Shown here piece after piece: positions 5,859 through 57,651 of a stretch of 64,000 nt of DNA. Each line of letters starts with the position of its first letter. The first letter of the stretch is position 1. Origin of the DNA: Carboxylicivirga linearis (GTDB taxonomy: Bacteria > Bacteroidota > Bacteroidia > Bacteroidales > Marinilabiliaceae); contig NZ_JAGUCO010000013.1 in assembly GCF_018271995.1 (NCBI RefSeq), positions 1 through 64,000 on the forward strand, in the 5' to 3' direction. The notes under the pieces were generated by a model. The model worked only from the letters and a program-made list of their open reading frames with translations, was not told the origin of the DNA and made no database searches. Made by a program: the position numbers and the translations under genes.

Positions 5859-6722
5859 ATGATAAGATCTATTGTAAGCTCCCTGTTTTTAGTACTGTGT
5901 TTGGGGGTAGGAGCACAAGAAATGAGTGATGAATTAAATGCCATTAAATCTACTTTTTTGGATGAAAAGTATGATGAGGTAATTGAAATGAGTTCTAAAG
6001 TATTAAGTGCTGAGGGAAAGGATAGTGTTGATATGGCAATGGCATATAGCTATGCCGGACTTTCGTACGAAAATTTGAATAAACCTGCAAAGGCAATTGA
6101 GAATTACAAGGGTGCTATTAGTTATAATGTGCCTCGATTGGATATTTACGATCAGTTAATAAATTTAACAAAAAGTGTAGATGATTCCGAAAATTATGAA
6201 TGGGCTCTTCATGCAAAAATGAAAGCTTTTCCAGATTTTAAAACCGAAATATCGCAAAGTCTGGCTAGTCATTATTCTCGTACTAAGCAATACGAAGCAT
6301 TGCTGAAAGAAGCCGCAGCTTTAAATGAGATTTACCCTGAGGATACAAAATATTTGTATTATCAAGGTATGGCTTATCAAAAATTGAAAGATGAAGATAA
6401 AGCTTATGAAGTTTTTTCTAAGATTTTAGAAATCGAGCCTGAGCATATTGGAGCCAACATGGGAGCCGGAATTTACTTGTATAAGAAAGGTTCGATCATG
6501 TTTAAAAAAGAGAAGGCAAAATATGAATCGAAAAAATCACCTAGTAGGGTAGACTATACTAACTACCTGAATTCGTTGGATAAAGCAAAGGGCGTATACA
6601 GTGAAGCCTTAAAATATTTGTTGGTAGCTTATAATGATGGTGGTAAAACTAGTTTAAAGCCAGCTATATCAAATATATATACGCGCCTAGGTGAGAAAGA
6701 GAAAGCCGAGCAGTTTAAATAA
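5859..6722 (+). CDS. Secreted tetratricopeptide-repeat protein
   Basis: 287 residues. The N-terminus has a short signal peptide (MIRSIVSSLFLVLCLGVGAQ), and no lipobox Cys is present. Two or three TPR motifs are readable: near residues 60-95 (AMAYSYAGLSYENLNKPAKA) and 165-205 (YLYYQGMAYQKLKDEDKAYE, then a second helix ending at IEPEHIG). TPR proteins act as periplasmic scaffolds, but no specific partner can be named. It is a single-gene unit: an exact -7 element lies upstream and a strong hairpin terminator follows 18 nt after the stop. The role is unknown. Confidence 0.85.
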   Translation: MIRSIVSSLFLVLCLGVGAQEMSDELNAIKSTFLDEKYDEVIEMSSKVLSAEGKDSVDMAMAYSYAGLSYENLNKPAKAIENYKGAISYNVPRLDIYDQLINLTKSVDDSENYEWALHAKMKAFPDFKTEISQSLASHYSRTKQYEALLKEAAALNEIYPEDTKYLYYQGMAYQKLKDEDKAYEVFSKILEIEPEHIGANMGAGIYLYKKGSIMFKKEKAKYESKKSPSRVDYTNYLNSLDKAKGVYSEALKYLLVAYNDGGKTSLKPAISNIYTRLGEKEKAEQFK

Positions 6723-11349: not shown

Positions 11350-13926
11350 ATGAAAGTAATTCAAAGGATGAAAAATAGATTTAAAAAATGGCAGTTCAGC
11401 AAAGCAGTGTTTTCTGCAATAATGTTGCTGATAGCCGTTAATTTTATGTCCTGTAATGATGACGAGCTCTTTTATGATAAAAATGAGCCCGAGTGGTTAG
11501 GGGCGAGTATTTATCAGTATTTAGAAGACGCTGGTAACTATGAGACATTTGTAAAGTTGATTGATGATGTTGGATATGATGAGGTATTGTCAAAAACAGG
11601 TAGTAAAACACTATTTGTTGCAAACGATGAAGCCTTCAGTCGTTTCTTTCAAAACAATCCTTGGAATGTAACTTCTTATAATGATTTGTCATTAGCTGAA
11701 AAGAAGTTGATTCTAAATTTTGGTATGATTGATAATGCTTATTTAATAGAAACATTATCTAATTACAATGATGGTGGTACGCTTGTATATGGTACTGCTA
11801 TGAGAAGACAAACAGCTAATACTGCCAGTGATAGTATTCTGTTTGATTCCTACCAGGATGTACCTAAATCTGGTCCTCTAGGGAATGTTTGGGAAAATAA
11901 TTTTAGAAATGGGATGTATGTGGTAAAAGATAATTCCGCATCTCCAATTGTGTATTTCTTCCAAAAGATGCTAACTACTAATGGTATTTCAAATGCCGAT
12001 TATAAGGTAATCAGTGGTAAGGATCGCAGTGGTGACGATGCTGATGTTTTTGATATCAGGGTGGTTGAAAGAGATATTGTTTGTAAAAACGGATATATTC
12101 ATGTGTTGGAGGATGTAATGATTCCTCGTGATAACATGGCAGAACATATTCATAAAAATCCAGAAACAACTATTTTTTCCGATTTACTTGATCGTTATAC
12201 GTGGTATCAGCCTGATTACGATCTTACAGAGGAATATAGTCTGGTTAATCCTGGTTTCTCCGATACCATTTATGTAAAGAGTTATCTGCAAAAGAATTTC
12301 TCTTACACGATGAATGGTCAACTGCTTGATTTAGATGATTATTTATTAAATTTTTCACCAGGAGCGAATGATTACTCACAATCAAGATTGCAAGCCGATA
12401 TGGGAACCATGATGGTACCAACTGATGCTGCAATGGATGAGTACTTTAACGAAGGTGCCGGACGTATTCTTAAAGAGAGATATGGTTCATGGGAAAATAT
12501 TCCGGATGATATTATCACTCTGTTTATGAACCGTCATTTAAGAAATTCTTTTATGGCTAGTGTTCCAAGTCAGTTTGATGACATGAAAGATACCGAGAAC
12601 TCTGCAGTGCCTATTACAACAGGTGATATAGAGAGTAGCTATATTGCGGTAAACGGTTTGGTGTATCATACCAATAGAGTTTATCCTCCAGATGATTATG
12701 TATCAATTTATGGACCGGTTTTATTTGGTGAAAAAGCCAAAGTGTTTAACTGGGCTATTCGTCAAAATGACTTTAGACTATACCTTAACTCTTTAGAGAA
12801 CTTATATTCATTCTTTGTTCCTTCAGATGATTTCTTCTCAAGGTATATCGATCCGTTTGCATTTGCTAAAGATGTAAAAGGGGCATTAAAGTATTGGTAT
12901 AACAATGAAACAAACACTGTAAATGCAACTGTTTATGCTTACGATGCAGCAACTGGAGAATTTGGTGATTCAATTAATGTAATTACCAATGCCAACTTCT
13001 TATCTAATCGTCTGCTTGATATGTTAGATAACCATATTGTGGTAGATGATGTTGAAAACGGAAAGAACTTTTACTTCACTAAAGAAAACAATGTTCTTAA
13101 GATTTCGGGTTCCGGAACTAATCTTAAAGTTCAGGCAGGTAATGATTTGGTAAATAATACAGATATTAGTGTACTAAGTGTTTTTGAACAGGCTAATGGT
13201 AATACTTATCTAATTGATAAACCATTACAAACGCCACTTCGATCAGTTTACAAAGTTCTTAGTGAGACACCACAGTTTAGTAAATTTTATGAATTATTAA
13301 ACGGATTTCCAAGTACATCTAACTCGGTTGTGTTTGTTAGAAGAACTAACTATTATGGTATTGATTATAATATCCGATTCTTTAATACCTTTAATTATAC
13401 AGTTTATGTTCCAACAAATGAAGCTATTCAGGAGTTAATCGACTCTGGCGAATTGAAGACATGGGAAGAGATTAATGCTATTGAAGATGCAACAGAGAAG
13501 TTGGCTGAGATTGAAAAAATGGAACGTTTCTTAAGATATCACTTCCAGGATAATTCAATTTTTATTGGTGGTCCTACTGTTAACAACACTTATCAGTCAT
13601 CAACCATTAACTTGGATAAACCAATTTATGATACCAGATATGGTACATACATTAATAAGTACTTCAAAATTGGGGTTGTACAAGATGGTAATGATTTGTT
13701 CTTAACAACTGAAAATCTTGATGATAATGAAAGTACAGCACAAGTTAAGAAAGATGAAGGATTATATAATATAATGGCTCGAGACTATGTTTTTAATGGT
13801 AATCCAAGTGCATATAGAGAAATAGACGGTTCAGGATCGGGTAGCAATAGCTTTACCTCTTCTGAAATTATTACCTCTTCTACTGCTGTTATTCACCAAA
13901 TAGATAGAGTCTTGAAGTTTGAATAA
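11350..13926 (+). CDS. Four-domain fasciclin (FAS1) lipoprotein
   Basis: 858 residues. The lipoprotein signal ends in NFMSC (Cys about residue 35), so it is predicted to be anchored in the outer membrane. Four FAS1-like domains can be read from their conserved C-terminal box: YIHVLEDVMIP (about residue 255), YHTNRVYPP (about 440), NHIVVDDVENG (about 565) and VIHQIDRVLKF (the C-terminus). FAS1 domains mediate adhesion or ligand contact in known proteins. Here it is the first gene of a block with SusC and SusD, and the SusC gene follows 7 nt after its stop. I infer a surface ligand-capture protein playing the part of SusE/SusF. The ligand is unknown. The ATG at 11350 was kept; M7 at 11368 is an alternative start. 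Confidence 0.85.
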   Translation: MKVIQRMKNRFKKWQFSKAVFSAIMLLIAVNFMSCNDDELFYDKNEPEWLGASIYQYLEDAGNYETFVKLIDDVGYDEVLSKTGSKTLFVANDEAFSRFFQNNPWNVTSYNDLSLAEKKLILNFGMIDNAYLIETLSNYNDGGTLVYGTAMRRQTANTASDSILFDSYQDVPKSGPLGNVWENNFRNGMYVVKDNSASPIVYFFQKMLTTNGISNADYKVISGKDRSGDDADVFDIRVVERDIVCKNGYIHVLEDVMIPRDNMAEHIHKNPETTIFSDLLDRYTWYQPDYDLTEEYSLVNPGFSDTIYVKSYLQKNFSYTMNGQLLDLDDYLLNFSPGANDYSQSRLQADMGTMMVPTDAAMDEYFNEGAGRILKERYGSWENIPDDIITLFMNRHLRNSFMASVPSQFDDMKDTENSAVPITTGDIESSYIAVNGLVYHTNRVYPPDDYVSIYGPVLFGEKAKVFNWAIRQNDFRLYLNSLENLYSFFVPSDDFFSRYIDPFAFAKDVKGALKYWYNNETNTVNATVYAYDAATGEFGDSINVITNANFLSNRLLDMLDNHIVVDDVENGKNFYFTKENNVLKISGSGTNLKVQAGNDLVNNTDISVLSVFEQANGNTYLIDKPLQTPLRSVYKVLSETPQFSKFYELLNGFPSTSNSVVFVRRTNYYGIDYNIRFFNTFNYTVYVPTNEAIQELIDSGELKTWEEINAIEDATEKLAEIEKMERFLRYHFQDNSIFIGGPTVNNTYQSSTINLDKPIYDTRYGTYINKYFKIGVVQDGNDLFLTTENLDDNESTAQVKKDEGLYNIMARDYVFNGNPSAYREIDGSGSGSNSFTSSEIITSSTAVIHQIDRVLKFE

Positions 13927-13933
13927 ATCCAAA

Positions 13934-16900
13934 ATGAATATGAAAATAAACTATATAATTGTCATATTACTGGCAATCGTGATGTTTCCATTCAATTCCA
14001 TGGCACAAGATATTGTGGTTAGTGGGAAAGTAGTTGATGCTGATGGGGAAGGCCTCGTTGGTGCCACGGTAGTTGAAACGGATAATCAACAAAGAATTAT
14101 TGCTGCTACCATTACCGATTTTAATGGGCAGTATGTGCTACAAGTTAAGAATACCAATAATTCTCTTGTATTTTCCTTTATTGGTTTTAAGAGTGTTACA
14201 CGTGCAATTGGTAATGAAACGGTAGTAAACGTAACCATGCAGGAAGACAAGCAGACCATAACTGAGGTGGCTATTGTTGCAGAAAAAAGGCATAGTGAAG
14301 GCTCTTTCTCTATTCCGCAAAGAGAGATCTCTGGTGCTGTACAGTCTGTTAGTATGGAGAAGTTGGAAGGTATGCCTACTACTTCTATTGATGATGCGCT
14401 ACAGGGACGTATTGCTGGTTTGGATATTGTGGCCAATTCAGGTGACCCTGGTTCAGGTTCTTCTATGCGTATTCGTGGTACTACATCTATTAATGCCAAC
14501 TCTGAGCCTTTAATTGTAGTTAACGATGTGCCTTTTGAAATGGATGTAGATCCAAACTTCGATTTTGCCAATGCTACAGAAGATGAATTTGCTACCTTAT
14601 TGAGTATTAATCCAGATGATATCGAGGAAATTACAGTATTGAAGGATGCGGCATCAACTGCTGTTTGGGGTGTGAAAGGTGCCAACGGTGTTTTGGTTAT
14701 CAAAACTAAAAAAGGGGTTAGAGGACCTACCCGTTTGCAATATTCATATCGCTTAACCGGTATTGTGCAGCCACAAGGATTAGATATGCTAAATGGGGAT
14801 GACTATACCATGATGATGAAACAAGCTTTGTTTAATCCTTATCAAAGTGAGATAGCAGCTAATGTAAGAGAGTTGGCGTATGATCCTAATTTTTCAGAAT
14901 ATCAGAACTTTAATAATAATGTTAATTGGGTTGATGAAGTAACACAAATCGGATTTAAGCACGACCACTTTTTAAGTCTTAGTGGTGGTGGCGAAAGAGC
15001 TCGTTATCGTGTATCTGGTGGTTTCTTAACTCAAACAGGTACTGTTATTGGTCAGCAGTTAGATCGTGTTTCTTCCAGGGCATATTTCGAGTACAATGTG
15101 TCGAACCGTATTAAATTTAGCTCTGATATTGCTTTTACCTTTACCGATAACGATAGAAATTATAGATATCCTGAACGTGATAGTAGAACTTCAATATTAG
15201 GGTTTGCCTATCAAAAGATGCCTAATGTGAGTGTTTATGAGCAAGATATTTATGGTAATAACACTGGTAGTTATTATAATATTGACCCTAATTCTGAACT
15301 AAATTCACAGCAGAAGAGTTTACCCAACCCGGTAGCTTTGGCTCGATTAGGAAAGAATAACCAAAAGAATTATCGTATTATTCCTAACTTCAGATTGTTC
15401 TACGATATTTTAAATCCGGAAACACAATATTTGAGATATGATGTAATTATGTCTTTCGATATTAATAATACCAGAACTAATATGTTCCTCCCAGGTGAGG
15501 CTACTAACTCAGTGTGGTCGGATAACCAGGTGAACAGAAGTTTTAATGAAGATTCGGAAACCATTGGTGTGTATCTTGAAAACAACATAACCTGGCAGTC
15601 ACGTTTTTCTAATCCTAATCATAATTTAATGATTCAGGGTAAAAATCGTATCAGAACAGGTAACGGATCCAGTCAGTCAATAGGTAAAACCAACTTACCA
15701 GGCGACTTTGTTAGTTCAACTATACCCGGATATTTTTTGCCAGGTGCTGACTATAATAGTTCTCGTTGGGCATACCGCAGTGTGTCTTTCTTAGGTAGGG
15801 CTCACTATACCTTTAAATCAAGGTATGTACTATCAGGAACGATTACCAGTGATGGTAGTACACAGTTTGGTAAAGATCGTAAATTCGGTACCTTCCCTGC
15901 TGTATCGGCTAAATGGATTATCTCCGATGAGCCTTTTATGCAAAGTACAAGCCGATGGCTAAGCTTCTTGGCATTTCGCCCAAGTTGGGGTATTGGAGGT
16001 AACACTCCGGGGCGTGAGTACTTGCACTATAGTATTTACCAAAATTATGGCAACTATATGGGAGAAACAGCCAGCCGCCCGGTTAATATGCGTTTAGATG
16101 ATTTAAGATGGGAAAAAACAACCCAATACAACCTGGGTATGGATATAGGTTTATTGAATGATAAGCTTGTATTCGACTTAAACTTATATAAGCGTCATAC
16201 CGAAGACTTGTTGTTTAAAGATTTGGCTGTGGCATCATCATCTGGTTACACAGGAGTAAGTTATCAAAACGTGGGTACAATGGATAACCAAGGGTATGAG
16301 ATTAATATTCAAACCAATAATCTTATTAAAACACAAGATTTGCGAGTTGATTTTAACTTCAATATTGCCAATAACCGAAATGTAATTGTAGAGCTGCGTG
16401 ACGACATCTTAAACAATACTAATGCAGACTTTAATTATGCTAACGGAACTTATTTGACTCGTATACAGGAAGGTCATGCTTTTGGATCTGTTTATGGATT
16501 TAAATATAAAGGGGTATACCAATACAACGATTACATCGAGGGTGTTCAGGAAAATGCTCCCGTAGCTCGTGATGGTAATGGAAATGTAATTACCGATTCT
16601 AGAGGTAATCCACTGCCAATGTATTATGCTTATGGCCAGGAAGGAATTCGCTACCAGTTCCGTGGAGGTGATGCTATTTACGAAGATGTAAACAACGATG
16701 GTACTATTGATGAATTGGATATTGTGTATTTAGGTAATACCAACCCTAAGTTAACCGGTGGTTTTGGTACAAATATCACATTTAAACAATTTGGTATGAC
16801 GGCGTTCTTTAATTTCCGTTATGGTAATAAGGTAATTAATAAAAACCGTATGAATGCCGAAAATATGTATAGCTACAATAACCAAAGTACTTCGGTAAAC

Positions 16901-17233
16901 TGGCGCTGGCGTAAAGACGGTGATGTTACCGACATGCCACGTGCATTGTATCAGCATGGTTACAATTGGTTAGGTAGTGATCGATATGTAGAAGATGGTT
17001 CTTTCCTTCGTTTTAAATATTTAAGCTTTAACTATTCGTTTAAAAAGCAAAAGCTTGAGAAGCTGAATATCGAAAACCTGAGACTGTTCTTAACATTTAA
17101 TAACCTTTTTGTTTGGACCAAATACACAGGTGTTGATCCTGAAGTGGGTTATGGTGCTATGGATATTAGTGAAGATTATGGTCAGACACCAAGATCCAGA
17201 GATTGTATGATAGGATTATCTGTAACCTTTTAA
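13934..17233 (+). CDS. SusC/RagA-family TonB-dependent outer-membrane transporter 1
   Basis: 1099 residues from the ATG at 13934. A TTG at 13919 would extend it into the preceding gene and is less likely. Signal peptide ends at SMAQ. A carboxypeptidase-regulatory-like domain follows (VSGKVVDADGEGLVGATVVE, about residues 25-105), then the TonB plug (LQGRIAGLDIV, MRIRGTTSINANSEPLIVVN, ITVLKDAASTAVWGVKGANG), then a long beta-barrel ending in an aromatic residue (GLSVTF), as in SusC proteins. It imports a polymer fragment bound by its SusD partner, using TonB energy. The partner SusD starts 11 nt downstream. A putative single-gene operator cannot be seen. Confidence 0.95.
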   Translation: MNMKINYIIVILLAIVMFPFNSMAQDIVVSGKVVDADGEGLVGATVVETDNQQRIIAATITDFNGQYVLQVKNTNNSLVFSFIGFKSVTRAIGNETVVNVTMQEDKQTITEVAIVAEKRHSEGSFSIPQREISGAVQSVSMEKLEGMPTTSIDDALQGRIAGLDIVANSGDPGSGSSMRIRGTTSINANSEPLIVVNDVPFEMDVDPNFDFANATEDEFATLLSINPDDIEEITVLKDAASTAVWGVKGANGVLVIKTKKGVRGPTRLQYSYRLTGIVQPQGLDMLNGDDYTMMMKQALFNPYQSEIAANVRELAYDPNFSEYQNFNNNVNWVDEVTQIGFKHDHFLSLSGGGERARYRVSGGFLTQTGTVIGQQLDRVSSRAYFEYNVSNRIKFSSDIAFTFTDNDRNYRYPERDSRTSILGFAYQKMPNVSVYEQDIYGNNTGSYYNIDPNSELNSQQKSLPNPVALARLGKNNQKNYRIIPNFRLFYDILNPETQYLRYDVIMSFDINNTRTNMFLPGEATNSVWSDNQVNRSFNEDSETIGVYLENNITWQSRFSNPNHNLMIQGKNRIRTGNGSSQSIGKTNLPGDFVSSTIPGYFLPGADYNSSRWAYRSVSFLGRAHYTFKSRYVLSGTITSDGSTQFGKDRKFGTFPAVSAKWIISDEPFMQSTSRWLSFLAFRPSWGIGGNTPGREYLHYSIYQNYGNYMGETASRPVNMRLDDLRWEKTTQYNLGMDIGLLNDKLVFDLNLYKRHTEDLLFKDLAVASSSGYTGVSYQNVGTMDNQGYEINIQTNNLIKTQDLRVDFNFNIANNRNVIVELRDDILNNTNADFNYANGTYLTRIQEGHAFGSVYGFKYKGVYQYNDYIEGVQENAPVARDGNGNVITDSRGNPLPMYYAYGQEGIRYQFRGGDAIYEDVNNDGTIDELDIVYLGNTNPKLTGGFGTNITFKQFGMTAFFNFRYGNKVINKNRMNAENMYSYNNQSTSVNWRWRKDGDVTDMPRALYQHGYNWLGSDRYVEDGSFLRFKYLSFNYSFKKQKLEKLNIENLRLFLTFNNLFVWTKYTGVDPEVGYGAMDISEDYGQTPRSRDCMIGLSVTF

Positions 17234-17244
17234 ACAATGACAGA

Positions 17245-18867
17245 ATGAAAAGAAGTAATTGTAAAAAAAACAGGTTAATGAAGATGAAAGAACCACAATA
17301 TAAAAGAACAATGAAAATACGAACAATCTATTCATTGTTATGGGGATTGATTTTATCAGTTAGTTTTACGTCATGTTCTAATTGGTTGGATTTAAAACCC
17401 GAAAGTGATCAGGTACTGGAAGATTTCTGGAAAACAGAATCTCAGGTAAACCAGGTGATGAATGCTTGTTATCGTTCAATGCTTGAATACGATTATCTTG
17501 ACAGAGCCATGGTATGGGGTGAATTGAGAAGCGATAATGTAACTTTTGGATCGCAAATGGAAGTGAATATGTATTTGATGATTAATGTGGATATTACATC
17601 ATCAAATGCATATGCAAGGTGGGCTCCTATGTATCGTACTATCAACTATTGTAATAACTGGTTGTATTTCGCGCCAGGCGTTATGGATTTAGATCCTAAC
17701 TTTACAAGTGCTAAATATCAGTTTGCCAGAGCGGAAGTGTTAACCATTCGTGCTTTGTCTTATTTTTACCTTGTTCGAACTTTCGAAAATGTTCCTTGGG
17801 TAGATACACCTAGTATTGACGATACTCAGGATTATAATGTACCACAATCGACAGAGGACGAAGTACTGGATCATATAACAGCTGATTTGGTAGATGCATT
17901 AAGAACGGCTCGTGAGTCATTTGATATTAGTGCTCAAAACAAAGGACGAATCACAAAAAATGCCATCAGAACTTTGTTGGCGGATATAGCGCTTTGGAGA
18001 AACGATTATGAAAGCGTTGTGAATTACTGTGATGAAGTAATTAATACTGAGAGGTATGAATTGGTTGAGGCAGAAGATGTGTTACAAGATGTATTTTATA
18101 TAGGTAATTCACAAGAAAGTATATTTGAACTTCAATTTCGATCATCCAACCTTGAAAATGGACCTGTAAGGACTAATATCGGATGGAGTGGTGCAGAACT
18201 TGGATCGTGGGCATTTCCTTTTAACTTAATGCAAGATGGTGGTCCGTTTACTTTTCAGGTTAGTGCCAATACAACCGAAGGAGAAAAAGATATACGAAAG
18301 TATGATTACATGATACAGAGATCAGCCGAAGCGTATTATCCATTTAAATATGCTGGATATAGAAGTACATTTGGAGATGACGAGGATGTTTCAGTCAATG
18401 ATTATTACTATACACTAGACTGGTCGAATTGGATTGTTTACCGTTATTCTGATGTATTATTAATGAAGGCTGAAGCCTTGGTTGAAATTGGTGGACGTGA
18501 GCAAGAAGCTTTAGATTTAGTGAATGAAACATTTTTACGTTCTAATCCAGAAGATGATCCATTGACACTTGCCAATTATCAGGGAGGTTTACTAAGAAAT
18601 CTCGTATTAAGAGAGCGTCAGCGTGAGTTTATGTGGGAAGGTAAACGTTGGTATGATCTTATGCGTTTGGCACGAAGAGCAGATTCAACAGACCCATTAT
18701 TAGGGTATGTTATGAATAAATTCTCAGGAGATGGAAATTATGCTGCTAAAATGTCTGTGATGGATGCGTTGTATATGCCAGTGCATATTAGTGAAATCAA
18801 TGCGAATCCTAATCTTGAGCAAAATCCATTTTATGAAATTAACTCTGGAAGTTCATCCGGTAATTAA
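17245..18867 (+). CDS. SusD/RagB-family substrate-binding lipoprotein 1
   Basis: 540 residues from the ATG at 17245. The ATG at 17311 (MKIRTIYSLLWG) gives a neater lipoprotein signal and may be the real start; an ATG at 17203 would overlap the SusC gene. The lipobox is SFTSC, followed by NWLDLKPES, the typical SusD opening after the anchor. The C-terminal part has the SusD hallmark REFMWEGKRWYDLMRLAR. It caps the SusC barrel and binds oligomer at the cell surface. The FAS1 gene at 18879 follows 11 nt after its stop. Confidence 0.93.
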   Translation: MKRSNCKKNRLMKMKEPQYKRTMKIRTIYSLLWGLILSVSFTSCSNWLDLKPESDQVLEDFWKTESQVNQVMNACYRSMLEYDYLDRAMVWGELRSDNVTFGSQMEVNMYLMINVDITSSNAYARWAPMYRTINYCNNWLYFAPGVMDLDPNFTSAKYQFARAEVLTIRALSYFYLVRTFENVPWVDTPSIDDTQDYNVPQSTEDEVLDHITADLVDALRTARESFDISAQNKGRITKNAIRTLLADIALWRNDYESVVNYCDEVINTERYELVEAEDVLQDVFYIGNSQESIFELQFRSSNLENGPVRTNIGWSGAELGSWAFPFNLMQDGGPFTFQVSANTTEGEKDIRKYDYMIQRSAEAYYPFKYAGYRSTFGDDEDVSVNDYYYTLDWSNWIVYRYSDVLLMKAEALVEIGGREQEALDLVNETFLRSNPEDDPLTLANYQGGLLRNLVLRERQREFMWEGKRWYDLMRLARRADSTDPLLGYVMNKFSGDGNYAAKMSVMDALYMPVHISEINANPNLEQNPFYEINSGSSSGN

Positions 18868-18878
18868 ATCAGTGAGTT

Positions 18879-20834
18879 ATGAAGAGTGTAAGGAAAAACA
18901 AAATGAAATTATTAAAGAGTAGCAATACTATTTACTTAGGAATACTTTTCCTGTTTACAGTAATGTTATCCTCTTGTTACGATGATAATGTAGGTAATAT
19001 ATATACCAACGAAGGACTTACAATTGGTCAGTATATTACTCAAAACCCTGAGCAGTTTTCAGAATTCTCTAGACTGCTAGATACAACTAAGGTTAAAGGT
19101 TTGTTAAATGCTTATGGTGTTTATACATGCTTTTTACCCGATAATGAGGCAATGAAAGCGTATTATCAAATGAGAGGGCGTACATCATTAGATCAGTTCC
19201 CTTTAGATAGTTTGCAAAAAATTGCTTACGATCATATTATCCAAAACTACGATATTCAAACCAGTGAGTTTGGGGTTGGATTTTTGGCGAGGTTAACCAT
19301 GAGTGGCCGTTATTTGAAAACAGATGTGGAAACTGGAGGTGGAAGTTTTGACTTCTATATTAATACCGACTCAAAAATTACTGAGAAAGATGTTGAAATG
19401 CATAACGGTATTATTCATGTACTCGACAAAGTATTAAACCCTACTGAAAATACTGTTGTAGAAGCTATCTCAGAAGATGAAAACTTTACTTTATTGAGCG
19501 AAGCTTTATTGCTTACCGGTGTAGCTGATCGATTAACTCCTATTAAAGATGAATCATATGTTCTGCCAAGTGATCTTGAAGAGCGTGAAGGTACAACTGG
19601 GGGTAATGGTTCTATTAACCGTGTACCATTTGAGAGAAGATATGGTTTTACCATTTTTGCTGAGAGCGATCAAACCTATCGCAATAATGGTATTAATAAC
19701 ATTGAAGATCTAAAGACTTTAGCAAGTACTATATATGATGCTACTTACCCTGAAGATGCCGGTATTACGGATGTTACAAATCCACGAAATAGTTTATATC
19801 GTTATGTAGCCTATCACTGTTTAAATAAAAAGGTACCACGTGCTTTCTTAATTGAAAGATATGATAATACAGGATCTACCTATGCAACAACCGGAGAAAC
19901 ACACTCGGTAAAAGCATACGATATGTTCGAATATCTCGAAACCTTGAATACAAATACTTTAATTGAGGTTAGAACTGACAGAACCCGAATTCAGGATCCT
20001 TATAATATTTTGAATCGTACCGCACCGGGTGTAGAAATTAATCTGACTGATAATTACGATAATGATGCAATTAACGGAGTTTATCACGAGATTGATAATA
20101 TTCTAGTTTATAGTCAGGAAGTTCGTCGATTGCTTTCAACTAAGCGTTTACGTATGGATGCGGCCAGTTTCTTCCCTGAGTTAGCCAATAACTCAATGAG
20201 GGTAGGACATGCAAGGGATGATTATCCTTACGAAAGCTGGAGGTTTACTGATGATTATATCGACAGAGTGAAAGTAGCTCCGGGTACCAGCTTCGGATAC
20301 TTATCATCTGACGATCGTTTCCTGGATTACCAGGGAGATGAAGTGTTTTTATCAGGATTATATGATTTTGAAATTACAACTCTACCGATTCCGGCCGGAA
20401 CATATGAAGTTAGATTTGGATGGCAGCCAACCATATGGAGGGGAGCAGCTCAAATTTACTGGGATGGCAAACCTTGTGGTATTCCATTAGATTTGCGTTT
20501 AACTGCTGATGATCCTAAAATTGGTTGGGAGAAACCTGGAGATAACTATAGTGACCCATTAGGTTACGAGAACGATAAAATGATGCGTAACCGTGGTTAT
20601 ATGAAAGGTCCTGCTTCGTTCAAGGTTATTAAAGATAGTCAAAATGGTGGATGGTATAACGGACCAGAAGCACGTAATAGTCCTAACTTCTTACGTAAAA
20701 TCTTAGGTATTTTTACTTTTGATAAGGATACAACCCATGTAATGGGGGTAAAAGCTGCCAGAGAAGGAGAGTTTATGTTTGATTTCTTAGAGTTTGTACC
20801 AATTGAAATTATAGAATCAGAAGGTATTGACTAA
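18879..20834 (+). CDS. Fasciclin (FAS1) lipoprotein with C-terminal beta-sandwich
   Basis: 651 residues. The lipobox is MLSSC at about residue 33. Two FAS1-like domains span about residues 45-190 (ending NGIIHVLDKVLNP) and 195-415 (ending NGVYHEIDNILVY). The remaining 235 residues are rich in aromatic and Gly residues (WRGAAQIYWDGKPCG, FMFDFLEFVP) and look like a beta-sandwich binding module. It sits between SusD1 and the next FAS1 gene, 25 nt upstream of the latter. I infer surface ligand binding for the adjacent transporters. I do not recognise a family with a known substrate. Confidence 0.82.
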   Translation: MKSVRKNKMKLLKSSNTIYLGILFLFTVMLSSCYDDNVGNIYTNEGLTIGQYITQNPEQFSEFSRLLDTTKVKGLLNAYGVYTCFLPDNEAMKAYYQMRGRTSLDQFPLDSLQKIAYDHIIQNYDIQTSEFGVGFLARLTMSGRYLKTDVETGGGSFDFYINTDSKITEKDVEMHNGIIHVLDKVLNPTENTVVEAISEDENFTLLSEALLLTGVADRLTPIKDESYVLPSDLEEREGTTGGNGSINRVPFERRYGFTIFAESDQTYRNNGINNIEDLKTLASTIYDATYPEDAGITDVTNPRNSLYRYVAYHCLNKKVPRAFLIERYDNTGSTYATTGETHSVKAYDMFEYLETLNTNTLIEVRTDRTRIQDPYNILNRTAPGVEINLTDNYDNDAINGVYHEIDNILVYSQEVRRLLSTKRLRMDAASFFPELANNSMRVGHARDDYPYESWRFTDDYIDRVKVAPGTSFGYLSSDDRFLDYQGDEVFLSGLYDFEITTLPIPAGTYEVRFGWQPTIWRGAAQIYWDGKPCGIPLDLRLTADDPKIGWEKPGDNYSDPLGYENDKMMRNRGYMKGPASFKVIKDSQNGGWYNGPEARNSPNFLRKILGIFTFDKDTTHVMGVKAAREGEFMFDFLEFVPIEIIESEGID

Positions 20835-20859
20835 CAGCTAAATTCAAATTGAAGAAAAA

Positions 20860-22449
20860 ATGAAATATACAATTTATAAAAACGCTTTAATCCTGTTAAT
20901 ATCTGTCGGGTTTGTATTTACTGCCTGCAACGATGAATGGGATAGTCATTATCAAGAAGATATCTATGACGGAGCTGAAACTTCTATGATGGAATATCTG
21001 GAAGCTAACAGCGATTTAAGCACCTTCACATCTCTGGTTAAACAAACCGGTTATGATGATATTTTAAATACACCGCAAGTCTTTACTGTATGGGCCCCTA
21101 ACAATGAGGCCCTTGCAGGAATAGATGTAAACGATGAATTGTTTGTTGAGAATCTGGTTAAAAACCATATCACTCGCGGTAGAATCGGAACATCTGGTAT
21201 AAGCCTTGACGCTATTAAAATGCAAAGCGGTAAGAATATCGATTTTGAAACCAATGGCGGAGGTTATATGTTTGGAGATGCTAATCTTACACAGCAAAAT
21301 GTACCTTTAAACAATGGTTTAGTGCATAAGTTGGATGGTTATGCTCCTTATTTGTATAATATTAAGGAATACATCGGAGAGACTGAAGGATTTGATTCTT
21401 TAAAAAATTACATTTTTGGTAAAGATAATTATGAATTTGATCCGATAAACAGTGCTGAAATTGATATTGATGAAAATGGACAAGTAGTTTATGACTCTGT
21501 TTTTATTTATACCAATGAAATTCTTAGTTGGATTGGAGAAATTTATAAAGAAGATAGTGTGTATACTGCTATTTTACCTACTAATACTGCTTGGCAGGAA
21601 GCTTATGATCGTATTAAACCGTATTTTAATCTCCCTATTGATTTAGGAAGTGAGAAGTATGCTGATGAATATACTAAGAACAGAATTGTTGAGAACATGA
21701 CCTTTATGGGTAAGATTGATAATCCTGCCCAATACGATTCTATTCAATCCAGAGCCTGGTACTATACTCCTTACAGTGTACCCAATAGTTATGCTTCAAC
21801 AACCATTAAGAAATTTTTTAATGTAGAGGATTTATTTGCCAATAAAGAGCAGGTAGAACTGAGTAATGGTTTGGTATATATTGCAGATCAAATGCCGTTT
21901 TTAGACTCTGTTTTTTATAAAAAAATACAGTTGGAGGCAGAATATTCTGATTCCAGAGAAAACTCAAATAGTGAAGTATACTATCGAAGTAGTTACGAAT
22001 CTGATTTAGATATTTCTAACAATTACTATTTATACGTTGAGCCTATCAGTACAAGTGCCAAGCCTAGCGTAACCTTTATGCTGAATGATATTTTATCAGC
22101 ATCTTACGATATATCTTGTGTATTTGTACCGGAATCAATTGCTGGTGATACTTTAGAGACCAAGGTCTCTTTTGTACTAACGTATATCAATTCAGAAACA
22201 GGGCGTGTACGTCGTCAAAGAGTAACTCCTGAAGATAATGTGGTAAAAGCGGATGGCCTGACAAAGATGCATGCTTTACGTTGGGACTTTGAATGGGCTA
22301 ATGTTCGCAATACCTATGAAAATATGGAGTTGCCGGTTCAGTTAGAAGTTATTAATGAAGTATCTGATGCAGAAGCTTCGGATCCGGAATTAAAACTAAC
22401 AAGAAGGATGCGAATTGACTGTATAATGTTAGAACCAGTTACAGAATAA
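20860..22449 (+). CDS. Fasciclin (FAS1) lipoprotein with C-terminal jelly-roll-like domain
   Basis: 529 residues. The lipobox is VFTAC at about residue 22. Two FAS1-like domains span about residues 38-170 (ending NGLVHKLDGYAPY) and 175-350 (YTAILPTNTAW; ending NGLVYIADQMPF). Residues about 355-529 form a separate beta-rich domain ending RMRIDCIMLEP, a strand pattern seen in galactose-binding-like folds. It lies 3 nt upstream of the second SusC gene, so it most likely serves that transporter. It is shorter than the other two FAS1 proteins and shares their two-part plan. Confidence 0.83.
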   Translation: MKYTIYKNALILLISVGFVFTACNDEWDSHYQEDIYDGAETSMMEYLEANSDLSTFTSLVKQTGYDDILNTPQVFTVWAPNNEALAGIDVNDELFVENLVKNHITRGRIGTSGISLDAIKMQSGKNIDFETNGGGYMFGDANLTQQNVPLNNGLVHKLDGYAPYLYNIKEYIGETEGFDSLKNYIFGKDNYEFDPINSAEIDIDENGQVVYDSVFIYTNEILSWIGEIYKEDSVYTAILPTNTAWQEAYDRIKPYFNLPIDLGSEKYADEYTKNRIVENMTFMGKIDNPAQYDSIQSRAWYYTPYSVPNSYASTTIKKFFNVEDLFANKEQVELSNGLVYIADQMPFLDSVFYKKIQLEAEYSDSRENSNSEVYYRSSYESDLDISNNYYLYVEPISTSAKPSVTFMLNDILSASYDISCVFVPESIAGDTLETKVSFVLTYINSETGRVRRQRVTPEDNVVKADGLTKMHALRWDFEWANVRNTYENMELPVQLEVINEVSDAEASDPELKLTRRMRIDCIMLEPVTE

Positions 22450-22452
22450 GGT

Positions 22453-25400
22453 ATGAACTGTAATATGAATAGAATGAAACAAATAATATCGTTAAAAACA
22501 GTACTATATAAAGCTCTTGCCGTGTCGGCAATGGCTGTAATATGTACCTTATTTGTAGGTAGCCCGGTATATGCTCAGGACGATCTGAGTGAAATGCTTG
22601 CAGAGATTGATGAGGTACGTTTTTTAACCGGTGTGGTTAGAGATGCTCAAACAAAAGAACCGATTGTGGCAGCTCAGTTATCAACACTAAACTATGAATC
22701 GGCAGCCACAACGGATGCTGAAGGTAAGTTCTCAATAGGTATTACCGAAGATACAGAAGTAATTTTGGTAAAAGCTTTTAATTATAATGCTCGCGAAGTT
22801 GCTGTTAGAGGTAATAACGATTTAGTTATCGAACTATACTCAGATAAATTTAACGAGCTATATTTCGAAAAGGAAAATCTGACTAAAAAAGAACGTACAT
22901 CAAAGGTGACTAATTCTGTTAGTACAATGGATGTTTTTACACCTCCTTCATTTGCTTCTGTTGATGAATTACTTCAATCGAATTTAGGCGGTGAAATGCG
23001 TTCCATTGGTCGTTCGGGATTAACCGGTATTGGTAATGCTATGTTTATACGTGGTTTAAATTCAGTAAATGCCAATGCACAACCACTATTTATTGTTGAT
23101 GGTGTAATCTGGAACAGTCAATATGATGTAGAGTCGCTACATGCCGGATATTTTGGAAACACATTGATGAATATTGATGTGAGTGATATCGAAAGTGTGA
23201 GTGTTGTCAAAGATGGTACTTCAATTTATGGAAGTAAGGGAAGCAACGGTGTGGTTATCATTAAAACCAAACGAGGAGAAAGTATGGCAACCAAAATTGA
23301 AGTTAATTCAATGTATGGTTACATCGATCGTCCCAATACCTTGCCGGTTATGAATGTAAATCAGTCGCGAAATTATGCTTCAGATTTGGTTTCTTCTATG
23401 ACTGAAACCGAAATGCGAAGCCGATTTGGGTTAAAACCAACGGAAGGGGCTAATGATTTACCTTTCCTGGATATTAATCCTAATACATCTACTTACGCTG
23501 ACTATAATAACAATACCAACTGGGAAGATCAGGTTTATCAGGAAGGTATGTACCATAGTAATAAAATTAGTGTAAACGGTGGTGATGATAAAGCATTATA
23601 TAATTTCTCGGTAGGATATACCGGAAGTAATGGCGTGGTTAAAACTACCGATATGGATCGTTTGCATTCTCGTTTTAATGCTGATATCTCAATATTAAAT
23701 GATGTTGATTTAGGTTTAAATGTAGGTTTTACCAATACCAATCGCACTTTATTAGACGATGGTGCTGTGTTTCATACTTCACCAACCTATGCATCTTTAA
23801 TTAAATCGCCTTATCTGTCACCTTTTTTATATACTAATTCAGGAACGCTTACTACAGATCCTGCTGACAGTGATATTTTTGGGGTTACCAACCCAACTGC
23901 ATTAATTGAAAATGCATTAAATACCAATAAGCAATATCGTTTTAACATGGCGATTAAGCCTACCTGGAGAATAAATGATAAATTAACTGCATCATCTATT
24001 TTTGATTACAGCTACGAAAAGGCCAGTGAAACTTTTTACCGTCCTATTAATGGTGTAGCTGATATTTATCTTGATAATGTAGGATGGTCGCAAAATATGT
24101 TCCAAGGCCAGCAACTGCGTAACATTTCTATGTATAGCGATACCCGTTTAGATCATCGTTATAAAAAAGGATTGCATCGTGTTAATTCTTTATTAGGTTT
24201 CAGATACCTTTCAACAGATTACGAATCTACGTTTGGTGAAGGTCACAATACAGGTACCGATCAAAGAAGGGATTTATTACCTGATATGATTGACAAAAAT
24301 ACCGTAGGTATTCATGATCAAATCAACTATCTGTCAACATATGCTAAGGTAGATTACAGTTTCGATAACCGTTATTTTGTAGGTGCATCAGTTGCTGTTG
24401 ATGGATCAAGTGTATTTGGAGCTGAAACACAAGAAGGATTTCAATTAGGAGATCATAGTTTCGGAGTATTTCCATCAGCAGAAGCAGCCTGGTTAATTTC
24501 ATCGGAAGAGTTTATGAGCAGTGCTTCTTTTGTAGATCAGTTAAAACTACGTGCCTCGTATGGTTTAACTGGTAATGATGATATTGACGCATATGCCGGG
24601 CGTACTTACTTTTCTTCAATACGTTATTACGAAAGAATGAATGGTTTGGTATTTGGTAATATTGGTAATAAAGAATTACAATGGGAGACAACGTCCAGAG
24701 TAAGTGCCGGGTTAGAAACTATTCTTTTTAACGATCGTTGGGCATTAAATGCTGACTTTTACAGAGGTTATACATCTAACCTGTTAATGTTAAAAGATTT
24801 ACCTGAAGTGGCTGGTAATGGAATGTACTGGTCTAACGAAGGAGAGATGTCAAACATGGGAGTAGAAGTATCAACCAATATAAAAGTATTGAACTTAAGT
24901 AGTTTTAAATGGGAAGCTGGTGGTTCGATTGGTCATTACCAAAATAAAATTGAAGCCTTACCGGGTGGAGATATGATTACTTCTATCTATGGAGCTGATG
25001 TATTAACGTCAGTAGGTAGCGCAGCAGGTGTTTTCTATGGTTATAAAACCAATGGAGTTTTTGCCACAGAAGCAGATGCTACTGCAGCCAACCTTAAAAT
25101 GGTTGATAAAAGTGGTACAGAGCATTATTTTGGTGCCGGTGACATGCATTTTGTTGATAATGGTGATGGTATTATCGATGAGAATGATAAGCAAATAATT
25201 GGAGATCCAAATCCTGATTTCTACGGATCTTTCTTTACCAATTTTACGGTTAAGAATTTTAGCATTAATGCATTGTTTACCTTCTCTTACGGAAATGATA
25301 TTTATAACTATCAAAGAGCGATGTTAGAATCGGGTAGCGATTTTATTAATCAATCTACAGCCATGACTAACCGTTGGTTCTATGAGGGACAACAAACCGA

Positions 25401-25701
25401 AATGCCAAAGGCTACATACGGAGACCCTATGGGGAATGCCCGATTCTCTGACAGATGGATTGAAGATGGTTCTTACCTGCGCTTTAAAACCTTATCACTT
25501 AATTATAAGGTGCCTATTAAAAGTAGTGTTGTGTCTGGTTTAAATTTCTGGGTTTCGGCCAATAACCTTTTTACCTGGACCAATTATCTGGGAGCTGATC
25601 CTGAATTCTCTAGTTCTAATAGTGTATTATATCAGGGAATTGATACTGGGTTGCTGCCGTATTCAAGAAGTTATTATGTGGGTGTTAAGATAAATCTATA
25701 A
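22453..25701 (+). CDS. SusC/RagA-family TonB-dependent outer-membrane transporter 2
   Basis: 1082 residues. Signal peptide ends at VYAQ, preceded by an N-terminal extension (MNCNMNRMKQ); the second or third Met may be the true start. A regulatory-like domain (LTGVVRDAQTKEPIVAAQLS) precedes the plug (SIGRSGLTGIGNAMFIRGLN, NAQPLFIVDGVIWN, VSVVKDGTSIYGSKGSNG) and a barrel ending VGVKINL. It differs clearly from SusC1 in the N-terminal domain and plug, so the pair is not a recent duplicate. Its stop codon overlaps the start of SusD2 by one base (TAATG), which implies translational coupling. Confidence 0.95.
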   Translation: MNCNMNRMKQIISLKTVLYKALAVSAMAVICTLFVGSPVYAQDDLSEMLAEIDEVRFLTGVVRDAQTKEPIVAAQLSTLNYESAATTDAEGKFSIGITEDTEVILVKAFNYNAREVAVRGNNDLVIELYSDKFNELYFEKENLTKKERTSKVTNSVSTMDVFTPPSFASVDELLQSNLGGEMRSIGRSGLTGIGNAMFIRGLNSVNANAQPLFIVDGVIWNSQYDVESLHAGYFGNTLMNIDVSDIESVSVVKDGTSIYGSKGSNGVVIIKTKRGESMATKIEVNSMYGYIDRPNTLPVMNVNQSRNYASDLVSSMTETEMRSRFGLKPTEGANDLPFLDINPNTSTYADYNNNTNWEDQVYQEGMYHSNKISVNGGDDKALYNFSVGYTGSNGVVKTTDMDRLHSRFNADISILNDVDLGLNVGFTNTNRTLLDDGAVFHTSPTYASLIKSPYLSPFLYTNSGTLTTDPADSDIFGVTNPTALIENALNTNKQYRFNMAIKPTWRINDKLTASSIFDYSYEKASETFYRPINGVADIYLDNVGWSQNMFQGQQLRNISMYSDTRLDHRYKKGLHRVNSLLGFRYLSTDYESTFGEGHNTGTDQRRDLLPDMIDKNTVGIHDQINYLSTYAKVDYSFDNRYFVGASVAVDGSSVFGAETQEGFQLGDHSFGVFPSAEAAWLISSEEFMSSASFVDQLKLRASYGLTGNDDIDAYAGRTYFSSIRYYERMNGLVFGNIGNKELQWETTSRVSAGLETILFNDRWALNADFYRGYTSNLLMLKDLPEVAGNGMYWSNEGEMSNMGVEVSTNIKVLNLSSFKWEAGGSIGHYQNKIEALPGGDMITSIYGADVLTSVGSAAGVFYGYKTNGVFATEADATAANLKMVDKSGTEHYFGAGDMHFVDNGDGIIDENDKQIIGDPNPDFYGSFFTNFTVKNFSINALFTFSYGNDIYNYQRAMLESGSDFINQSTAMTNRWFYEGQQTEMPKATYGDPMGNARFSDRWIEDGSYLRFKTLSLNYKVPIKSSVVSGLNFWVSANNLFTWTNYLGADPEFSSSNSVLYQGIDTGLLPYSRSYYVGVKINL

Positions 25702-27407
25702 TGGAAAGAATATTAAACATGCTACATGTAAGTGAAAAGATGAAAAGTATGAAAAAATTATATAACATAGTGGTAGGTATCGTAATGATAGGTATTACGC
25801 TAACCAGTTGTTTAGATACAAAGTCAGATCAGATACTACTGCCATCCGATTTAGATTTAAATTCTCCGGATAAGAATTTTTATTCGATGAATGGAGTTCT
25901 TAACCAATTGGAAAAACTAACCTTGCGTTATGTTATTTTGGGAGAGTTAAGAGGCGACCTTATGGAAACCACTTCCTATTCTGATGAAGAACTAAATGAA
26001 GTATATAACTTTGAGGCAGGGCCTGATAACAAGTTTAATAATGTAGGTGATTATTATTCAGTAATCAATCTTTGTAATTATATGATTGCCAATATTGATA
26101 CTGCTATAACAATGAAAAACGAGCAGGTTAATCTGAGAGATTATGCTGCTGCCAAAGGAATTAGAGCCTGGACCTATATGCAGTTAGCTTTAAACTATGG
26201 AGAAGCAAAATACTATACCAATGTAATTGAGGATGTATCTGATGCCAATAAAAATTATCCAAGTTATGGTATTGAAGAACTGGCTGGTGAGTTAATTGAT
26301 GATTTAATTGCCTGGAGAGATATACAGGCTCCGGATAAATATGAATCAGCCAATATGTTTTTTTCAATTCGTATGTTGTTGGGAGATATGTATTTGTGGA
26401 CCGGGCAATATGAAAGTGCGGCCAGAGAATATTATCATCTGATTAATAATAATCCTGCTACAACTCAAAATGCCTATTATATTGATGTAGATTATAATAA
26501 TAGGGCATATTTAGACAATAATACCATTATAGGTTGGAGAGCTAGTTGGCATAATTTATTTAGAGGTTTGGAGCACAATACCATTACATTGGTAAATGGC
26601 TCTTCAGAGTATAATGCCGAGGGATCACCGTTAGATTCATTAAACCAGTATATGAATGAATTGGCCCCATCTGATATTGCTCTGAATAATTGGGATAGTC
26701 AGATATATTATGTGACTAGTACCATTACTGATGAAGGTGATTACAGAGGTGAAACAGGAACCGCAGGTTCATACTCGCTATTATCGTCCAACACAGAAAA
26801 AGGTCAAATAGTTAAGTTTCAAAACTTGTCAACAGAAACCCGAAGATCGGTGGTGCTTTATCGTGCAGCACACTTGTATTTACGCTATGCTGAGGCAGTA
26901 AACCGTTTGGGTAAGCCAAATTTGGCATTTGCAGTATTAAAGAATGGATTAGGGCCTTATACTTTAGCAAACGATAACTTGGTGCCTCGTCACGAAAAGT
27001 ATAGTACCTATACTGATACTACCGGAACACTGATTGGTTATGTTGATTTTACCGCAAGCAATTATATTACTACCATAGTAGATGATGATGAAGTAGAACG
27101 CACCGTTCAGCGTAATATTGGTGTACATAAACGCGGTTGTGGTAATGTTGAACTAAGCGAAACTTTTATTATCCCAGAACAAGCTTCGTTAGAAGATTCA
27201 ATTCAATATGTTGAAGATAAAATTATTGAAGAACTAGCTTTGGAAACAGCCTTTGAAGGTAATCGTTTTCATGACCTGATGAGAATTGCAAAACGCAGAG
27301 GTAGCAATGCCTATTTAGCCGATAAAGTGGCAGAAAAATATACTAATGCAGACGCGATTCGTGCAAAATTGATGGAAGAAGCTAATTGGTACTTACCAAC
27401 TAAATAG
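25701..27407 (+). CDS. SusD/RagB-family substrate-binding lipoprotein 2
   Basis: 568 residues. The start overlaps the SusC2 stop. The lipobox is TLTSC at about residue 37, reached from an internal Met (MKKLYNIVVG) that may be the real start. A helix-rich SusD-like body follows (YAAAKGIRAWTYMQLALNYG; MLLGDMYLWTGQYESAARE) and ends with ELALETAFEGNRFHDLMRIAKRRG, the SusD C-terminal hallmark. It partners SusC2 at the outer membrane. It is the last gene of the block: a terminator hairpin begins 40 nt after the stop. Confidence 0.93.
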   Translation: MERILNMLHVSEKMKSMKKLYNIVVGIVMIGITLTSCLDTKSDQILLPSDLDLNSPDKNFYSMNGVLNQLEKLTLRYVILGELRGDLMETTSYSDEELNEVYNFEAGPDNKFNNVGDYYSVINLCNYMIANIDTAITMKNEQVNLRDYAAAKGIRAWTYMQLALNYGEAKYYTNVIEDVSDANKNYPSYGIEELAGELIDDLIAWRDIQAPDKYESANMFFSIRMLLGDMYLWTGQYESAAREYYHLINNNPATTQNAYYIDVDYNNRAYLDNNTIIGWRASWHNLFRGLEHNTITLVNGSSEYNAEGSPLDSLNQYMNELAPSDIALNNWDSQIYYVTSTITDEGDYRGETGTAGSYSLLSSNTEKGQIVKFQNLSTETRRSVVLYRAAHLYLRYAEAVNRLGKPNLAFAVLKNGLGPYTLANDNLVPRHEKYSTYTDTTGTLIGYVDFTASNYITTIVDDDEVERTVQRNIGVHKRGCGNVELSETFIIPEQASLEDSIQYVEDKIIEELALETAFEGNRFHDLMRIAKRRGSNAYLADKVAEKYTNADAIRAKLMEEANWYLPTK

Positions 27408-27446: not shown

Positions 27447-27473
27447 AAAGGGGCCGTTTGGGTCCCTTTTTTT
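27447..27473 (+). terminator. Intrinsic terminator after the FAS1/SusCD block
   Basis: A 9-bp stem pairs 27447-27455 with 27461-27469 (one G-T pair), has a 5-nt loop, and ends in a run of seven T. Confidence 0.8.
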
Positions 27474-56428: not shown

Positions 56429-56444
56429 TGCAAGTATACAGTTT

Positions 56445-56633: not shown

Positions 56634-56644
56634 TCGGGTAAAAC

Positions 56645-56672
56645 TAAAAAAAAAGGAGGTGTGAACCTCCTT
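56645..56672 (-). terminator. Intrinsic terminator of the HU gene
   Basis: A perfect 8-bp inverted repeat, AAGGAGGT (56653-56660) and ACCTCCTT (56665-56672), with a GTGA loop. On the minus strand it ends in a T-run of eight. It begins 9 nt after the HU stop. Confidence 0.85.
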
Positions 56673-56681
56673 AAATATATT

Positions 56682-57640: not shown

Positions 57641-57651
57641 TGAAAATAAAG

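Follow-up and report, generated by a model that had tools for sequence, protein, structure and literature searches.

A conserved block of three FAS1 lipoproteins and two unlike SusC/SusD pairs in Carboxylicivirga linearis, a probable plant-glycan uptake unit

Related systems and gene content of the block

In the rhamnogalacturonan-I (RG-I) locus of Bacteroides thetaiotaomicron, as outlined in a review (PMC8002723), two SusC/SusD pairs (BT4164/BT4165 and BT4168/BT4169) are found together with an RG-I-binding surface protein, BT4167, whose number places it between them. A system with two pairs and a glycan-binding protein is therefore of a known kind. The locus described in the current study lies in a stretch of 64,000 nucleotides of the Carboxylicivirga linearis genome (assembly GCF_018271995.1, contig NZ_JAGUCO010000013.1, positions 1 to 64,000; hereafter the window), and consists of seven plus-strand genes (11350-27407) encoding, in order, FAS1-SusC-SusD-FAS1-FAS1-SusC-SusD proteins, here called F1, C1, D1, F2, F3, C2 and D2. 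These genes are inherited together in one order as a conserved unit, which very probably takes up plant glycans. The preferred reading, with a probability of roughly 0.58, is that of a two-pore uptake machine with FAS1 and jelly-roll lipoproteins, serving arabinogalactan in the window and RG-I in a paralogous block.

Like the classical starch utilization system (Sus) and the polysaccharide utilization loci (PULs) built on SusC/SusD, the block contains members of the SusC and SusD families that score above cut-off, with a hybrid two-component regulator and glycan enzymes nearby. It differs from them in that the place of SusE/F-type proteins is taken by three FAS1 lipoproteins, the two SusC/SusD pairs are unlike each other, and no enzyme is encoded within the seven-gene run. 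The F proteins share fold and sequence with the eukaryotic FAS1 matrix proteins TGFBIp, periostin and fasciclin I, but are bacterial lipoproteins with an added jelly-roll and are tied to SusC/SusD. A gene for a FAS1 protein was placed in a hemicellulose-like PUL with SusD in Gramella portivictoriae and other Flavobacteriaceae (PMC4891872, Fig. 6 legend), but the setting there is one of GH5, GH9 and GH26 enzymes, and the seven-gene order is absent from the description in that legend. Among the matches in open-access PubMed Central (PMC) articles, this legend was the only text that put a FAS1 protein inside a PUL; in the matching portions of these articles no description was found of FAS1 proteins in a double SusC/SusD unit, of a strict seven-gene unit or of substrate-linked subtypes.

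The features of the block, obtained from open reading frame (ORF) calls and from Pfam and NCBIfam matches, are as follows.

11350-13926, plus strand: F1, lipoprotein of 858 amino acids with several FAS1 domains (PF02469 in three stretches; lipobox FMSC at Cys35, then NDDE)
13934-17233, plus strand: C1, SusC/RagA TonB-linked outer-membrane transporter (TIGR04056 at 747 bits; passes the TIGR04057 signature)
17245-18867, plus strand: D1, SusD lipoprotein (PF07980, PF14322; lipobox FTSC)
18879-20834, plus strand: F2, lipoprotein of 651 amino acids with a FAS1 region (two FAS1 domains by model) and a predicted C-terminal jelly-roll (PF02469 in one stretch)
20860-22449, plus strand: F3, lipoprotein of 529 amino acids with a FAS1 region and a predicted C-terminal jelly-roll (PF02469 in one stretch)
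22453-25701, plus strand: C2, second SusC/RagA transporter (TIGR04056 at 590 bits; 27.8% identical to C1)
25701-27407, plus strand: D2, divergent SusD lipoprotein (PF07980 at 33.2 bits; lipobox LTSC)
27447-27469, plus strand: terminator-like stem-loop with a T tail, 40 nucleotides past D2

All seven genes reported in an earlier note on this DNA were recovered at their positions, on the plus strand and in that order, with their families above the Pfam or NCBIfam cut-offs. PF02469 (Fasciclin) passed in F1, F2 and F3 and likewise in their paralogues, and both transporters were well above the TIGR04056 cut-off of 368 bits. The short TIGR04057 signature passed in C1 (51.7 bits), while C2 (39.7 bits) fell below the cut-off of 46.2. 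PF07980 was above cut-off in D1 and weaker in D2 (33.2 against 23.1 bits). The tight packing of the genes was also confirmed, the gaps between ORFs as called being -8, -31, 11, 25, 3 and -1 nucleotides. The ORFs of C1 and D1 as called open at TTG codons (13919 and 17203); if these genes instead start at the ATG codons at 13934 and 17245, the first two gaps are +7 and +11 nucleotides.

A promoter-like element ahead of the block, which the same note had reported, was left without support because promoter-like sites were no commoner in the region (80) than in shuffled sequence (76.4). The sigma-70 scan was rejected as evidence, being no better than the shuffles, and two TAnnTTTG motifs at 11069 and 11244 were unpersuasive as promoters, as they are 2 of 45 on the plus strand of the window. 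As for the reported terminator, the stem is present, but terminator-like sites were found in the region at the level of chance (7, compared with 8.9 in shuffles). No RNA family in the window scored above the Rfam gathering score, and no tRNA was found in it.

Conservation of the seven genes and probable roles of their products

An F2 alignment was used to scan a contig collection in which 84,980 species are represented by a single genome each, and 225 stretches were confirmed, the best 80 of which correspond to 77 loci. Of these loci, 33 have the exact seven-gene order, six have an F2-first order (as in Paraprevotella), 21 are partial, mostly owing to contig or flank limits or to additional F2 copies, and the remaining 17 were assigned to an F2-only class, although two of these (L164 and L195) also carry F1. 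When loci from further genomes are included, the exact order was found at 51 non-redundant loci besides the window, with pairwise-distance correlations of 0.91-0.97 among the seven genes. Where the sequence extends 8.5 kb or more past D1, C2 follows in all 55 cases, and where it extends 12.5 kb or more ahead of C2, C1 precedes in all 37; no half-block was thus present among loci with enough sequence. The loci for these order counts were gathered through their FAS1 genes, and a search with C2 provided a check independent of FAS1. In 395 genomes of the phylum, C2 was found (E <= 1e-150) at 10 places in eight genomes, including that of C. linearis; these are the places of the long F3 matches, with C2 and F3 adjacent and co-directional at all 10.

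Chance association of neighbouring genes is ruled out by the order at 51 loci, the distance correlations and the lack of half-blocks. The earlier note had proposed looking in relatives for a conserved order of FAS1 and susC/susD genes, and this expectation was borne out by the 51 loci and by the C2-F3 pairs. Named carriers of the exact order include Geofilum, Natronoflexus, Alkalitalea, Maribellus and Plebeiobacterium; it also occurs in Paludibacter and in metagenome-assembled genomes (MAGs) of Prolixibacteraceae, Dysgonomonadaceae, Prevotellaceae and Bacteroidaceae. It is not a universal feature of the phylum, since only 8 of the 395 sampled genomes had C2 orthologues at E <= 1e-150, and in this it was set apart from the B. 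thetaiotaomicron RG-I locus, to which it is likened by the description in the review.

Some F2 loci depart from the usual arrangement. F2 genes with no other block gene in view were seen at L146, L184, L191 and L200, and two ruminant MAGs (L201 and L206) have F2 in three tandem copies. Loci L106-L110 belong to a third and more divergent set of seven-gene blocks in the same family, with F2 proteins of about 530-575 amino acids, which was pooled with the paralogue type in the counts given below.

A FAS1 search of the C. linearis genome located a second block on contig C115 (L009), in which all seven genes recur in an identical order, with an eighth gene encoding a protein with a type IX secretion system (T9SS) tail. 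Each gene of the window's block pairs best with its positional counterpart on C115 (identities of 40% for C1, 37% for C2, 35% for D1, 29% for D2, 25% for F1, 29% for F2 and 30% for F3). C1 and C2 of the window are only 27.8% identical and each is nearer to its own counterpart (40% and 37%), therefore a simple recent duplication of one SusC/SusD pair was rejected, in agreement with the earlier note. In the preferred reading C1D1 and C2D2 would work jointly. The low identity of C1 and C2 and the weak SusD match of D2 would also suit two separate importers that take up different pieces of a single polymer, co-encoded without a joint complex, and the B. thetaiotaomicron RG-I locus is described in the review as having two transporter complexes (PMC8002723). 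The lack of half-blocks among loci with room for them argues that the two pairs need each other, though not that they are in contact, and the probability of separate importers is put a little below even. This alternative concerns only the joint-machine part of the preferred reading, and is compatible with its substrate part.

Lipoboxes are present in F1, F2, F3, D1 and D2, and the residues from the lipobox cysteine onwards are CNDDE in F1, CYDDN in F2 and CNDEW in F3. Acidic residues after this cysteine mark surface export. At least two acidic residues in the five positions following it were found in 45 of 55 F1, 61 of 76 F2 and 45 of 63 F3 homologues, compared with 17 of 73 for D1 and 43 of 62 for D2; for the F proteins these are the homologues whose lipobox was caught by a simple pattern (55 of 72, 76 of 118 and 63 of 82, respectively), some loci being counted twice.

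AlphaFold2 models were obtained for F2 (predicted local distance difference test score of 90.5 and predicted template modelling score of 0.86, from an alignment of 52 homologues) and F3 (88.9 and 0.80, from 46 homologues), and TGFBIp, periostin and fasciclin I were the top Foldseek matches. The F2 model also matched MiXBM, which we take to be a xanthan-binding module, and GH87 enzymes, and the F3 model matched MiXBM, CBM35 and CBM22, with modest template modelling scores for the matches resembling carbohydrate-binding modules (CBMs). These CBM-like matches were assigned to the C-terminal jelly-rolls by secondary structure and inference. F2 and F3 are predicted on this basis to end in a CBM-like jelly-roll. 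The extra beta-sandwich parts that the earlier note had given to every FAS1 protein are supported for F2 and F3, the two proteins that the models covered, and its placing of the FAS1 proteins in the position of the binding proteins agrees with their place in the gene order and with the jelly-roll ends of the F2 and F3 models. F1 to F3 may thus be surface glycan-binding proteins, although the fold alone is no proof of glycan binding.

FAS1 is described as an adhesion domain in a passage of the literature (PMC6032426), and the best structural matches of the models are TGFBIp, periostin and fasciclin I, as might be expected if the three lipoproteins were adhesins to plant or matrix material and SusC/SusD were mere neighbours. 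Such a role is very unlikely in view of the strict co-inheritance of seven genes in one order, the finding of F3 with C2 even when C2 was searched alone, and the CBM-like C-terminal folds, and it is not needed to explain the data.

Enzyme neighbourhoods and the probable substrate

The subtypes of the block follow enzyme neighbourhoods. Genes within 25 kb of F2 were counted in 28 genomes, 23 of which were picked for carrying a window-type locus. The 45 rows of window-type F2 (E <= 2e-51) include copies without SusC/D and fragments, and the other 34 rows pool the paralogue type with the third type. PL11 genes were near 24 of the 34 paralogue- and third-type F2 (1.5 expected) and near 2 of the 45 window-type F2 (2.35 expected), whereas GH128-like (PF11790) genes were near 20 of the 45 window-type F2 (0.79 expected) and near 1 of the 34 others. 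The Fisher values for these contrasts, 3e-10 and 2e-5, are nominal, as are the Poisson values, because the genomes are related; the two counts serve as mutual controls. The six weakest GH128-like rows (E >= 1e-4) and the seven weakest or fragmentary PL11 rows (106 of 113 used) were dropped, as were two further fragments of one gene in another family count and one second fragment in the GH43 count. A PF11790 gene was located no more than 30 kb from a window-type F2 in 21 of the 24 genomes having such an F2. Of the four genomes that lack window-type F2, three had no PF11790 match (E <= 0.001), and the fourth (G442) had four.

Flanking genes were tallied by Pfam on ORFs of at least 200 amino acids, leaving out three ORFs of L168, a near-copy of L167 (119 of 122 used), three of L100 and five of L121. 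Within the family, paralogue-type flanks (88 of 91 proteins, 13 loci) contained PL11 (7), GH28 (5), GH43 (5), GDSL (5), GH42 (3), RhaT (3) and rhamnose metabolism genes. In the flanks of distant blocks at class level (100 of 105 proteins, 10 of 20 loci) short-chain dehydrogenases were commonest, ahead of GH2 (5), GDSL (4), GH28 (3), GH106 (2), GH88 (2) and RhaT (2). Window-type flanks (68 proteins, 12 loci, four blocks) contained Laminin_G (16), T9SS tails (14), GH43 (9), GH128-like (4), DUF2264 (3, two of which belong to a single gene, judging from their positions), BNR_4 (3), GH16 (3) and GH88 (2).

The GH128-like gene of the window is as follows.

7118-10732, plus strand: GH128-like (Glyco_hydro_cc) enzyme with H-type lectin domains and a T9SS sorting tail (PF11790, PF09458, PF18962)

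This gene ends 617 nucleotides upstream of the block, and its product matches PF11790 at 79 bits (cut-off 21). It has N-E-P at 543 and I-T-E-M at 637, which are presumably the catalytic glutamate motifs of GH128, and the nearest PDB entries of the domain are 6uaq and 6ufl (E about 1e-12, with matches spanning about 100-170 residues). A homologue lies directly upstream of F1 in 17 of the 40 loci with an upstream ORF, in some cases only partly inside the flank, and the catalytic parts of these homologues are 44-82% identical where aligned. GH128 is a beta-1,3-glucanase family, and the earlier note had suggested as ligand a beta-1,3-glucan supplied by this enzyme. The gene link proved strong, but beta-1,3-glucan itself is less supported, as the neighbours of window-type blocks include proteins closest to exo-beta-1,3-galactanases and to rhamnose-glucuronate lyase, a DUF2264 protein, an arabinofuranosidase and GH88.

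One window-type neighbourhood is that of Geofilum rhodophaeum (L088-L090). The flanking GH43 protein matches solved exo-beta-1,3-galactanases, among them 7bys and 5flw, which are so named, and 6eug (E 1e-145), which was deposited as a beta-glucanase and which we take to be a B. thetaiotaomicron exo-beta-1,3-galactanase. The BNR_4 protein matches L-rhamnose-alpha-1,4-D-glucuronate lyase (E 4e-61), and the DUF2264 protein (presumably GH154) matches, at E 1e-15 and weaker, PDB entries named beta-galactosidase and glucuronate dehydratase. An alpha-L-arabinofuranosidase, a GH16 protein and a galactose-1-phosphate uridylyltransferase are encoded in the same flank. GH16, GH43, GH154/GH105 and GH145/PL27 are given as arabinogalactan enzyme families in parts of a research paper and a review (PMC11107946, PMC12943147), and several of the families reported there for B. 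thetaiotaomicron and for the breakdown of gum-arabic arabinogalactan flank the window-type blocks; the window type differs in being tied to a double SusC/SusD block with FAS1 proteins and to a GH128-like enzyme that those parts do not name. Within 25 kb, BNR_4 was present near 7 of the 45 window-type F2 (1 of the 34 others), DUF2264 near 5 (none of the 34), and exo-galactanase-like GH43 near 6 (0.43 expected; 1 of the 34), and all three exceed random expectation near window-type F2.

The neighbourhood of the block in C. linearis itself is cut by the left end of contig C44, where the window starts (genome size 6.05 Mb). Two further genes lie between this end and the GH128-like gene.

3-5477, minus strand: protein with Laminin-G and cadherin-like repeats (PF13385; PF12733 in 11 stretches), running off the left end of the contig
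5859-6722, plus strand: TPR protein, whose counterpart in the closest relative likewise lies between the genes for the repeat protein and the GH128-like enzyme

This relative is Marinilabiliaceae bacterium A049, with an F2 that is 69-70% identical. Upstream of its block, a single contig carries the genes for the GH128-like enzyme, the TPR protein, the repeat protein, BNR_4, GH88/105, GH43, a hybrid two-component regulator, an MFS transporter, a kinase and L-fucose isomerase. Contig C66 of C. linearis has counterparts of those from BNR_4 outward, arranged in the same order, and the window itself has those of the GH128-like enzyme and the TPR protein. The final 187 bases of C66 (L223, 9854-10040) match, at about 80%, the cadherin-like repeat array with which C44 begins on its left side (window 1-5477), therefore the assembly most likely broke inside the repeat array, with C66 adjoining the left edge of the window, as synteny with A049 also suggests. 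The link of the arabinogalactan enzymes to the block in this genome consequently crosses a contig gap. The absence of enzymes and regulators noted earlier is true within the 16 kb of the block; it appears so because the block and the contig end where they do, as the GH128-like gene is 617 nucleotides upstream and more enzymes and a hybrid regulator are on C66.

It was also observed that the GH88/105 gene, which encodes 693 amino acids in A049, reads as 432 and 201 amino acids on C66 (115325-117405; L219, 9326-11406), which may reflect either disruption of the gene or a sequencing error. Pairs of DUF3857/DUF3858-type proteins are encoded beside the block (window 27796-31570) and beside the C66 cluster (L218, 7003-10899).

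In the proposed pathway the first cut would probably be made outside the cell by the GH128-like enzyme with its H-type lectin domains and T9SS tail. The released fragments would be captured at the cell surface by F1 to F3 and imported through C1D1 and C2D2, in which two different TonB-dependent SusC pores are each paired with a separate SusD lid. Caps and side chains would be stripped by the BNR_4 protein (of the rhamnose-glucuronate lyase superfamily), GH88/105 and the exo-beta-1,3-galactanase-like GH43 encoded upstream, and the hybrid two-component regulator would sense the product and control the enzymes. The sister block on C115, from which an RG-I set (GH88/105, GDSL esterase, DUF4450, GH28, PL11 and GH28) runs divergently, would serve the RG-I backbone in the same manner.

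From its gene neighbourhood, the window subtype probably serves type II arabinogalactan, either of arabinogalactan protein or as an RG-I side chain, which fits better than beta-1,3-glucan because of the GH43, BNR_4, DUF2264, arabinofuranosidase and GH88 neighbours. A system for beta-1,3-glucan (laminarin or callose-like) fed by the GH128-like enzyme would account for the strong co-location of that gene with the window subtype, for the Glyco_hydro_cc proteins as nearest solved structures of its domain and for a GH16 with laminarinase-like relatives in one flank. It is judged quite unlikely, as in the same flank the GH43 is nearest to exo-beta-1,3-galactanases and the BNR_4 protein to rhamnose-glucuronate lyase, as arabinofuranosidase, galactose-1-phosphate uridylyltransferase, GH88 and L-fucose genes are unexpected for a beta-glucan, and as the sister block is pectic. 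In a bolder version of the arabinogalactan reading, C1D1 and C2D2 would form an obligate mixed assembly with F1 to F3, with subtypes for RG-I or type II arabinogalactan, and the window subtype would be fed by a GH128-clan enzyme of new activity, cutting internally in beta-1,3-galactan and not in beta-1,3-glucan; this version is unlikely in all its parts together.

Several findings weigh against the assignment to arabinogalactan uptake. The nearest solved relatives of the GH128-like domain, being Glyco_hydro_cc proteins, leave room for beta-1,3-glucan, and the flanking GH16, nearest to a set with many laminarinases, is no help to a galactan substrate. Each arabinogalactan marker is near only a minority of window-type F2 (5-7 of 45), the subtype contrast is non-significant for every one in the 28 genomes (Fisher values of 0.13 for BNR_4, 0.067 for DUF2264 and 0.23 for GH43), and the PDB matches of the marker genes cover one relative only. 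The CBM-like matches of the F2 and F3 models have modest scores, as stated above. Finally, at 15 of the 77 loci F2 was found without any other block gene, and at four of these about 10 kb of sequence was available to either side, therefore FAS1 proteins can act without this block.

Other features of the window and implications

Downstream of the block, a single-domain BNR_4 protein is encoded 17 kb away (window 44459-45757), and a second set of glycan enzymes, comprising GH92, a double esterase, GH43 with an SASA esterase and GH97, is located at 54116-63998. The protein of 1091 amino acids encoded at 32937-36212 had only a weak Pfam match to a T9SS tail, and contains an HEMGH motif, which presumably indicates a metalloprotease.

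FAS1 domains are known mainly as matrix or adhesion domains of animals and plants. In the block they are fixed parts of an apparent bacterial nutrient importer, kept from Marinilabiliaceae to MAGs of Prevotellaceae and Bacteroidaceae. If the proposed reading is true, the block would provide a sequence marker for the use of RG-I and arabinogalactan in uncultured Bacteroidota, and the GH128-like proteins would become candidate enzymes, as a family, for the initial cleavage of arabinogalactan. The block also offers a direct test of whether two unlike SusC/SusD pumps act as one machine.

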